From Bacteroidaceae bacterium (GTDB lineage Bacteria; Bacteroidota; Bacteroidia; Bacteroidales; Bacteroidaceae): DNA of 64,000 bases. The position numbers and the translations under genes are program-made. The stretch covers positions 1-64,000 of the forward strand of contig JAFXGV010000038.1 of the NCBI GenBank assembly GCA_017536765.1. The letters run 5' to 3'. This document shows, piece by piece, positions 50,850 to 53,902 of the stretch (the first letter of the stretch is position 1; each line of letters starts with the position of its first letter). The notes below the pieces were generated by a model. That model did not search any database, was not told the origin of the DNA, and saw only the letters and a program-made list of their open reading frames with translations.

Positions 50850-51875
50850 ATGAAGCGGAAAATTATCATTGCCATAACGATATTGGCAATAGCAACTATG
50901 GGTGCGGCAGCACTGGGGCACTACATATTAAAAGGGGCACAAGTGAATATCGATGACACAGTATATATTTACATATACCCATCGGACACTGCAGAAAGCA
51001 TCATAAGAAAAATAGAAGAAGCAGCCAACCCCCACACAATGCTTGGCTTTAAGATTTTAGCAAAGCACAACAACCTGAACAAGCAAAAACGTACAGGCCG
51101 TTTTGCCATATATGACGGCGACGATATGCACAGCCTCTATCGCCGCATCGTGAGCAACCAGCAAACACCCATTATGGTAACAATACCTGCCACCCGCACC
51201 GTGGAACAATTGGTTGCCACCGTAAGCAAGCAGTTAATGATAGATTCGGCATCCATAGCCCACTTTGCATTGAACCATCTATACTACCAACGCGTGGGAT
51301 ACACAACCGCCACCCTCCCCGGCCTGTTCATCCCCAACACATACGAACTATATTGGAATATCGCCCCCGAGCGTTTTATGGCAAGAATGTTGCGTGAGCA
51401 CGATATCTTCTGGAACGACAGCCGCCGCGCAAAGGCAAAAGCCATAGGGCTAAGCATCGACGAGGTGGCCACGCTGGCATCTATAGTAGACGAAGAGACC
51501 AACAACGACAAAGAGAAGCCCATAGTTGCCGGGCTGTACATCAACCGTTTGAAACGCGGTATTCCCCTGCAAGCCGACCCCACCGTAAAATACGCATTGG
51601 GCGATTTCACACGCAAGCGCATCCTTAAAAAAGACCTGGAGATTGATTCCCCCTATAACACATATAAATATAAAGGCCTGCCCCCGGGCCCCATACGCAT
51701 ACCCACCATACAGGCAATAGAGAGTGTGCTTAACCACGCAAAGCATAATTATATATATATGTGTGCAAAAGAGGATTTTTCGGGCACGCACAATTTTGCC
51801 ACCACACTTGCACAGCACAATGCCAACGCACAACGTTACCAACAAGCCCTAAACAAACTAAACATAAAGAAATGA
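50850..51875 (+). CDS. mltG: Endolytic murein transglycosylase MltG
   Basis: 341 residues. Cuts nascent peptidoglycan strands, limiting their length. N-terminal membrane anchor (IIIAITILAIATMGAAAL), LysM-like part, then the YceG catalytic domain with ASIVDEETNNDKEKPIVAGLYINRL near 212; the glutamate in VDEET corresponds to the catalytic Glu of E. coli MltG. LQADPTVKYALG and SPYNTYKYKGLPPGPI follow, both family hallmarks. It overlaps the hexosaminidase gene by ATGA, so the two are translationally coupled. Confidence 0.95.
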   Translation: MKRKIIIAITILAIATMGAAALGHYILKGAQVNIDDTVYIYIYPSDTAESIIRKIEEAANPHTMLGFKILAKHNNLNKQKRTGRFAIYDGDDMHSLYRRIVSNQQTPIMVTIPATRTVEQLVATVSKQLMIDSASIAHFALNHLYYQRVGYTTATLPGLFIPNTYELYWNIAPERFMARMLREHDIFWNDSRRAKAKAIGLSIDEVATLASIVDEETNNDKEKPIVAGLYINRLKRGIPLQADPTVKYALGDFTRKRILKKDLEIDSPYNTYKYKGLPPGPIRIPTIQAIESVLNHAKHNYIYMCAKEDFSGTHNFATTLAQHNANAQRYQQALNKLNIKK

Positions 51876-53485
51876 GAACGGTTTTACTGACACTATTCAT
51901 AGCACTATTTGCAGCAAGCGCAACGGCGCAAGGTCCATTGGATGCACTCATCCCCATACCCAACAAGGTTGAAGTATGCAGCAAAGGCCGCACATACAGC
52001 ATCGACAAGAAAAGCGCCATTAAAACAACGCTGGCACACGATTCGCACTGCATCAAAGAACTGCAAAAAAGCATCGAGAAACACACCGGCGCCGCAGTAC
52101 CCGTTTCCGAAAAGGGCGACATCATTTTTGAAACCGACACCACACTGCAGGGCGGCGAACACTACACAATAGAAATCACCCCCAAAGGCATACACATAAA
52201 GGGTAGCACCGAAACCGCATTACTGCGCGCAGTGCAAACAATGGAACAAATTATGCTTGGCGACTACATAAACAGCGCAAGCAAAAAGATAGCCTGCCTC
52301 TCGATAGACGACTATCCACGCTATCACCACCGCGCAATAATGATAGACCCTGCACGACACTTCATCCCTGTAAACGATGTAAAGTTCTTCATAGACCGGA
52401 TAGCAAAATACAAATACAACATACTGCAGCTGCACCTCACCGACGACCAAGGCTGGCGCGTAGAGATAAAAAGCCACCCGCAACTCACAGCCAAAGGGGC
52501 CTTCCGCAACGCCAAAGGAGGAGCACAAGGCCCCGACAACGGCTTTTACACACAGGAAGAACTTAAAGAGATTGTGGAATATGCAGCCACACGCGGCATA
52601 GAAGTAATCCCCGAGCTCGATATCCCGGGGCACTCGGCCGCTTTCCTTGCAGCCTACCCCCACGCAGGGTGCCCCTTCCTGCACAACAGCGTAATAGACC
52701 TTGGCGAAACCACAAACAGAATGTTATGCGCCTGCAACGAAAGCACATACACCATATACGCCGACATATTCAAGGAACTTGCCGAAATATTCCCATCGCA
52801 GTACATACATTTAGGTGGCGACGAGGCAGCCATAGAGGCCAACTGGGCAAAGTGCGACAACTGCATCGCCCTGATGAAAAAGAGCGGATACAGCAGCCCC
52901 GAGCAGTTGATGAACATATTCTTCGGCAAGATGCTTGCCATTGTTCGCCAAAACGGCAAAAAGCCCATACTCTGGTGCGAACTCGACAACATATACCCAC
53001 CGGCAAACGACTACCTATTCCCCTACCCCGCCGATGTAACGCTCGTTACCTGGCGCAACGCGCTCACACCAAAATGCATAGAGCTCACCCGCAAACACGG
53101 GCACAGCCTCATTATGGCACCGGGAGAACACGCATACCTCGACTACCCGCAATACAAGGGCGACCTACCCGAATTCGGCAATTGGGGAATGCCGGTCACC
53201 ACCCTTGAGCAGACCTACGCACTCGAGCCCGGATACAACCTACCGGCAGGAGAACAGAGCCATATAATAGGCATAATGGGTACCCTGTGGGCCGAAGCCA
53301 TACGCGATATAAACCGCCTGACTTATATGGCATTCCCTCGTGCCCTTGCCCTTGCCGAAGCAGGTTGGAGCGAAGCGCCCCGTCGCAGTTGGGAGAGTTT
53401 CAAGCAACGCCTGCTACCCAATATCAACGACCTTATCAAAAGCGGAGTATCACTGCGCGTACCATTTGAAATATTCCAAAGATAA
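51872..53485 (+). CDS. GH20 beta-N-acetylhexosaminidase
   Basis: 537 residues from the ATG at 51872, which overlaps the mltG stop as ATGA; the earlier frame would overlap mltG by 111 bases. Signal peptide MRTVLLTLFIALFAASATAQ, so periplasmic or surface. GH20b domain about 25-145, then the GH20 barrel with DDYPRYHHRAIMIDPARHF, QLHLTDDQGWRVEI, and the catalytic pair in HLGGDEA (Asp316-Glu317). Releases terminal GlcNAc or GalNAc from glycans, mucin, or cell-wall fragments. Coupling to mltG suggests peptidoglycan turnover, but host glycans cannot be excluded. No lipobox. Confidence 0.94.
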   Translation: MRTVLLTLFIALFAASATAQGPLDALIPIPNKVEVCSKGRTYSIDKKSAIKTTLAHDSHCIKELQKSIEKHTGAAVPVSEKGDIIFETDTTLQGGEHYTIEITPKGIHIKGSTETALLRAVQTMEQIMLGDYINSASKKIACLSIDDYPRYHHRAIMIDPARHFIPVNDVKFFIDRIAKYKYNILQLHLTDDQGWRVEIKSHPQLTAKGAFRNAKGGAQGPDNGFYTQEELKEIVEYAATRGIEVIPELDIPGHSAAFLAAYPHAGCPFLHNSVIDLGETTNRMLCACNESTYTIYADIFKELAEIFPSQYIHLGGDEAAIEANWAKCDNCIALMKKSGYSSPEQLMNIFFGKMLAIVRQNGKKPILWCELDNIYPPANDYLFPYPADVTLVTWRNALTPKCIELTRKHGHSLIMAPGEHAYLDYPQYKGDLPEFGNWGMPVTTLEQTYALEPGYNLPAGEQSHIIGIMGTLWAEAIRDINRLTYMAFPRALALAEAGWSEAPRRSWESFKQRLLPNINDLIKSGVSLRVPFEIFQR

Positions 53486-53500
53486 ATACAAGCATCCACC

Positions 53501-53540
53501 CACACAACAGGAGCACCCCGCGGGGTGCTCCTGTTGTGTG
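53501..53540. terminator. Perfect 40-bp palindrome after the GH20 gene
   Basis: Two exact 20-base complementary halves (starting CACACAACAGGAGCACCCCG) with no spacer and no long T-tract. It is 15 nt past the hexosaminidase stop, the probable end of the mltG transcript, and 9 bases from the end of the structured RNA on the other strand. Confidence 0.7.
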
Positions 53541-53548
53541 TATAAAAC

Positions 53549-53735
53549 AAAAAAGTTTTGCTGCACGACGAGAACGATGAAACTCCGAGAAAAAATGATT
53601 TGAGTGCCCTTATCCTTTGTAATCCACCGGCTCTCGAAAGCTACCCGAAGGTTGTGGCCCGCCATTGGAAACAGAAGCTTGTCTCGGTTTCTTTTGTAAA
53701 ATTGATGAGTTTCCCAGTCGTTCGTACAGCAAAAC
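53549..53735 (-). ncRNA. Structured small RNA, probably 6S-like
   Basis: About 187 nt on the minus strand. A long closing stem pairs GTTTTGCTGTACGA (5' end, 53735) with TCGTGCAGCAAAAC (3' end, 53555) over 14 bp, then ACGA/TCGT and GAAACTC/GAGTTTC. A 20-nt asymmetric bulge on the 5' strand follows, then CCGAG/CTCGG and an inner hairpin region. Six T residues follow the stem. The -7 box TATATTTG sits 6 bases upstream of the predicted start. Length and closing-stem/bulge layout fit 6S RNA, which inhibits RNA polymerase; I could not confirm the family. Reading frames here are not gene-like. It shares no features with tmRNA or RNase P. Confidence 0.6.
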
Positions 53736-53741
53736 CTATTA

Positions 53742-53749
53742 CAAATATA
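53742..53749 (-). promoter_or_regulatory. -7 promoter box of the structured RNA
   Basis: Minus-strand TATATTTG (TAnnTTTG), 6 bases before the predicted RNA start. A TTTG-type -33 element lies upstream near 53766 with shorter than usual spacing. Confidence 0.55.
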
Positions 53750-53849
53750 TATTACTTTTTATATACAAACAATCATTCGCACCTTTTTTTTCGCATTTTA
53801 ATATCTTATCACAATTATTACGGCAAATAAACAGGCTTATGGGTATAAA

Positions 53850-53887
53850 AACACAAAACCAACCAAGTCATTGGTTGGTTTTGTGTT
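53850..53887 (-). terminator. Intrinsic terminator of the infC-rpmI-rplT operon
   Basis: AACACAAAACCAACCAA and TTGGTTGGTTTTGTGTT pair exactly around GTCA. It begins 15 bases past the rplT stop. The 53750-53849 gap below it is AT-rich and carries the structured RNA's promoter. Confidence 0.85.
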
Positions 53888-53902
53888 CTATGAAAGGTTA
53901 AA

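Follow-up and report, generated by a model that had tools for sequence, protein, structure and literature searches.

The minus strand of the window, which is the whole stretch of 64,000 nucleotides analysed here, very probably carries the 6S RNA gene of this ruminant-gut Bacteroidaceae genome, encoding an RNA that folds like an opened promoter. A scan with all Rfam models identified a match to the Bacteroidales-1 family (RF01693) at 53731-53553 (minus strand; 133.6 bits, E = 4.1e-22), which covers model positions 1-179 of 179 and lies above the gathering score of 60 bits. Rfam describes this family as "6S-Bacteroidales RNA suggested", and a search of the whole genome found a single copy. A sequence-only reading of the same DNA had guessed at a 6S RNA, and the end-to-end match to a Bacteroidales-specific family annotated in this way agrees with that guess; the raw sequence, read without tools, had yielded a real 6S RNA gene. 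The same reading had called the gene undeclared, and no gene is indeed marked at the locus, but any Rfam scan finds it. It had also proposed a check with two other Rfam models, neither of which reached its threshold in this genome, whereas RF01693 matched at full length. The general bacterial 6S model RF00013 (model score 46.4 bits) was without a match in this genome or in 24 congeners, and 6S-Flavo (RF01685, model score 85 bits) was without a match in this genome; both were therefore ruled out as the matching model.

Among 121 Bacteroidaceae genomes (30 genera sampled), RF01693 was found in 117, nearly always as one copy, and across the order it was found in 48 of 198 genomes. The close relatives whose 3' end matched were Bacteroidaceae metagenome assemblies, nearly all of them from the ruminant hindgut, and Bacteroides ihuae was the sole named control genome with a match. 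The full-length match, the single copy and the presence in 117 of the 121 genomes therefore make the window RNA an unexceptional example of a family already catalogued, a housekeeping regulator that nearly all members of the group should have. Reference strains of P. gingivalis have one annotated Bacteroidales-1 RNA each (PMC5771137).

Two side observations were made on this distribution. Only one genome of the 121 (G065) had three copies, on contigs C219, C214 and C107 (132.6, 123.5 and 96.7 bits, respectively), and because the scores differ, contigs mixed in from other species are the likely source. RF01693 had no match in 150 of the 198 order-level genomes, which leaves many families of the order unmatched, and few of these genomes match 6S-Flavo even weakly.

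The gene and its expression signals are located as follows.

53549..53735, minus strand: gene for the 6S RNA, of the Bacteroidales-1 family and about 187 nt long, from the RF01693 match, with a probable start placed from the promoter box and a probable end placed from the T run
53742..53749, minus strand: -7 promoter box TATATTTG, of the Bacteroides type TAnnTTTG, read directly, 6 nt before the RNA start
53773-53770, minus strand: ATTG, candidate -33 element, 20 nt upstream of the -7 box
53549..53554, minus strand: run of six T's, probable 3' end, read directly

The promoter box, the 6-nt spacing, the pairing of the ends over 14 bp, the terminal TTTTTT and the total of 187 nt had all been reported by the sequence-only reading, and each of them can be read in the sequence. 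TAnnTTTG is the Bacteroides -7 consensus, and ATTG is presumably the -33 element, by comparison with the consensus. A scan with the sigma-70 consensus found no promoter at the locus, which is expected for a Bacteroidetes promoter. A TAnnTTTG box was present 5-30 nt upstream of the start of the RF01693 match in 50 of 70 loci, in comparison with about 2% of random windows from the same loci, and at least five T's followed the 3' arm in 34 of the 70 loci against a background of 5%. A Bacteroides promoter with -7 and -33 elements is described in PMC7366714. The window RNA would be transcribed separately, over about 187 nt, from its own promoter.

The genes infC, rpmI and rplT were identified upstream of the 6S gene on the same strand by their open reading frames and by tblastn, and a further feature stands between them and the 6S gene.

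53848..53889, minus strand: hairpin of 19 bp and its T-rich tail, downstream of rplT (L20), fold -25.8 kcal/mol, separating infC-rpmI-rplT from the 6S gene

The 6S gene is immediately preceded by this operon, on the same strand, in the window and in about one third of the loci examined, an arrangement that would suit a cis-acting 3' element of infC-rpmI-rplT, serving ribosomal-protein regulation or termination, in place of a separate RNA. Such an element is highly improbable, however, given the terminator-like hairpin after rplT and the promoter box, which is kept, also in many loci where rplT is not nearby; rplT was not found within 1.5 kb in about two thirds of the loci. On the other side of the 6S gene, a perfect 40-bp palindrome that lacks a T run and occurs nowhere else in the genome is located at 53501-53540 (CACACAACAGGAGCACCCCG and its complement). 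It separates the 3' end of the 6S gene from that of a convergent open reading frame at 51761-53485 (plus strand), which looks like a putative beta-hexosaminidase gene. The palindrome is perhaps a shared bidirectional terminator or a stabiliser of transcript ends.

Matches to Thr_leader and microRNA models near the locus were below threshold, and because they were far below the gathering scores they were treated as chance products of A/T-rich sequence and of the nearby palindrome. A protein-coding function was also rejected: the lengths of the conserved RNA are spread over all three remainders modulo 3, and the length steps are not multiples of three.

The structural elements of the RNA are located as follows.

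53722..53735, minus strand: closing stem, 5' strand GUUUUGCUGUACGA, 14 bp with 53568-53555, supported by covariation
53555..53568, minus strand: closing stem, 3' strand UCGUGCAGCAAAAC, pairing with 53735-53722, supported by covariation
53707..53713, minus strand: lower helix, beneath the bubble, 5' strand GAAACUC, pairing with GAGUUUC at 53585-53579
53579..53585, minus strand: lower helix, beneath the bubble, 3' strand GAGUUUC, pairing with 53713-53707
53686..53706, minus strand: bubble, 5' strand AUCAAUUUUACAAAAGAAACC, 21 nt, presumed template side for product RNA
53586..53601, minus strand: bubble, 3' strand AAAUCAUUUUUUCUCG, 16 nt, unpaired in the covariation-supported model
53602..53685, minus strand: apical arm, a GAG/CUC base followed by an interrupted helix and two small hairpins, from the Rfam structure and covariation

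In an alignment of 53 sequences (A1), compensatory changes were found in 11 of the 12 aligned pairs of the closing stem, with 87% of the cells paired. The duplex energy of the stem averaged -21.7 kcal/mol for the sequences' own arms, in comparison with -13.1 kcal/mol when arms of different species were combined (0 of 2000 permutations), and the same arm swap in 35 order-level sequences outside the alignment gave -21.6 and -13.2 kcal/mol, respectively (0 of 5000), although the relatedness of the sequences means that neither permutation count is an exact probability. Covariation of the closing stem in relatives, whose absence would have counted against the sequence-only proposal, was looked for and is present in both the arm swap and the compensatory changes. 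The fold of the single sequence was moderately more stable than dinucleotide shuffles (z -2.12), 6 of 200 of which were equally good; this stability is weak by itself, but the RF01693 match and the covarying closing stem place the locus far beyond chance. At eight loci (L044, L046, L047, L048, L054, L059, L064 and L069), the closing stem is rewritten as AGC(C/G)GGG...AGGA / UCCUCCC(G/C)GCU and has a small bulge on its 5' side; the whole stem has been replaced, yet its pairing is kept.

The lower helix is mostly invariant, with 93% of its cells paired among the 53 sequences. Its six pairs AAACUC/GAGUUU were complete in 36 of 36 independent sequences, a set that leans toward conservation as it was located by motif patterns tolerating 1-2 mismatches, and a compensatory AAAUUC/GAAUUU was found at locus L127. 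The 5' strand of the bubble (columns 46-67 of the alignment) is 19-22 nt long in 53 of 53 sequences. RNAalifold analysis of the alignment paired GAG (53685-53683) with CUC (53604-53602) at the base of the apical arm, in which helices 5 and 6 covary.

The sequence-only reading had placed a 20-nt one-sided bulge at the position of the bubble. This form arises only in the single-sequence fold, in which CCGA is paired with UCGG, and the GAG/CUC and CCGA/UCGG pairings compete for the same 5' bases. The GAG/CUC pairing was complete in 53 of 53 aligned and in 35 of 36 independent, more distant sequences, whereas CCGA/UCGG was complete in 38 of 53 close relatives and in 15 of the 36 more distant ones. 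Compensatory changes were found for both, with GGG/CCC replacing GAG/CUC at L056 and L138 and CCGG/CCGG replacing CCGA/UCGG at L050 and L067. The one-sided bulge was ruled out as the conserved form because its pairing is less often complete, and the relatives support a two-sided bubble, with 21 nt on the 5' side and 16 nt on the 3' side, between the closing-stem side and the apical arm.

The predicted energy favours the one-sided form in 33 of the 53 sequences, and that form may therefore exist as an alternative state. A more speculative possibility, which we consider rather unlikely, is that the 5' segment CCGAG acts as a two-way switch, in which pairing with CUC, constant across the order, would leave the bubble open for polymerase and pairing with UCGG would close its 3' side to give the one-sided bulge of the minimum-energy fold. 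The UCGG-paired state would perhaps follow the synthesis of product RNA, as a Bacteroidales version of the rearrangement by which 6S RNA is released.

A copy of the exact -7 box inside the bubble was also considered and rejected: TAnnTTTG was found on the complement of the template strand of the bubble in 3 of 53 sequences, in comparison with 4% of shuffled ones, which is not above chance. The looser TA-n-TTG was enriched, largely since TTG is fixed. Promoter mimicry would thus rest more on the shape of the RNA than on a copied box.

A mode of action can be proposed for this RNA. A sigma-ABfr-type promoter would drive the independent transcript of about 187 nt, in which the long closing stem and the apical arm enclose the bubble of 21 + 16 nt, so that its shape is like that of a melted promoter. 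In place of DNA promoters, the holoenzyme of the housekeeping RNA polymerase would then bind 6S RNA and be held back by it. On the return of nucleotides, the 5' strand of the bubble could serve as the template for a short product RNA that would run into the lower GAAACUC/GAGUUUC helix, and this synthesis would refold the 6S RNA and free the polymerase. Transcription, polymerase binding, growth-phase regulation and the product RNAs with their start site are all proposed here by analogy with other 6S RNAs and with B. thetaiotaomicron. Product RNAs of Bacteroidetes are said to have been predicted in the 2014 survey of Wehner et al.

In comparison with known systems, the canonical 6S RNA (RF00013; E. 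coli and B. subtilis) has the same length, closing stem, central bubble and apical arm as the window RNA, but its sequence is too diverged for an RF00013 match. The canonical layout consists of a closing stem, a central bulge, an apical stem and a template for product RNA (PMC8414754). In Bacteroides thetaiotaomicron, which belongs to the same taxonomic order, a 6S RNA that may correspond to RF01693 and two classes of its product RNAs were detected experimentally (Ryan et al. 2020, PMC7366714).

The discovery paper gave Bacteroidales-1 no function, and this, along with the missing RF00013 matches in this genome and its 24 congeners, would fit an unrelated structured sRNA conserved in Bacteroidales, such as an antisense RNA or a regulator that pairs with mRNA, which would not be a ligand of RNA polymerase. 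We consider such an RNA improbable in view of the layout, which is of the 6S type and keeps an open bubble between two arms that covary, the cross-matches of 6S-Flavo at the same places, the near-universal single copy in the family, the 6S identity suggested in the Rfam annotation, and the 6S and product RNAs seen in Bacteroides.

The window RNA and Bacteroidales-1 (RF01693; Weinberg et al. 2010) have the blocks GGGAAACUCAUCA, ACCGAGACAAGC, AUGGCGGGCCAC, GGUGGAUUACAAAG, CACUCAAAUC and CGGAGUUUCAUC in common. In the Rfam structure of RF01693, the apical arm alone is paired and the closing stem is left unpaired; covariation or constancy supports three further helices here that are absent from that structure, namely the closing stem, the lower helix and GAG/CUC, which bounds the bubble. 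The comparison thus adds a modest structural refinement, while the gene and the family are themselves ordinary and already catalogued. The resulting structural model of the Bacteroidales 6S family, with its closing stem and two-sided bubble, is fuller than the Rfam entry and might find 6S RNAs in the unmatched families of the order.

6S-Flavo (RF01685) has the same layout as the window RNA, with AAACUCA-CA ... CGGAGUUU around the bubble, but its model has 108 positions only and finds no match in this genome. In other genomes (G315, G301, G294, G198 and G161), one locus matched both RF01693 and RF01685. Locus L091 scored 76.4 bits with RF01693 and 44.4 bits with RF01685, at coinciding positions. 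L098, a good 6S-Flavo RNA (96.8 bits), was matched by RF01693 at E = 0.0045 and has the bubble flanks AAACUCAACA ... CGGAGUUU, elements in common with the window RNA. Since these cross-matches fall at the same places, RF01693 and RF01685 look like one homologous family and would appear to belong in a single family or clan.
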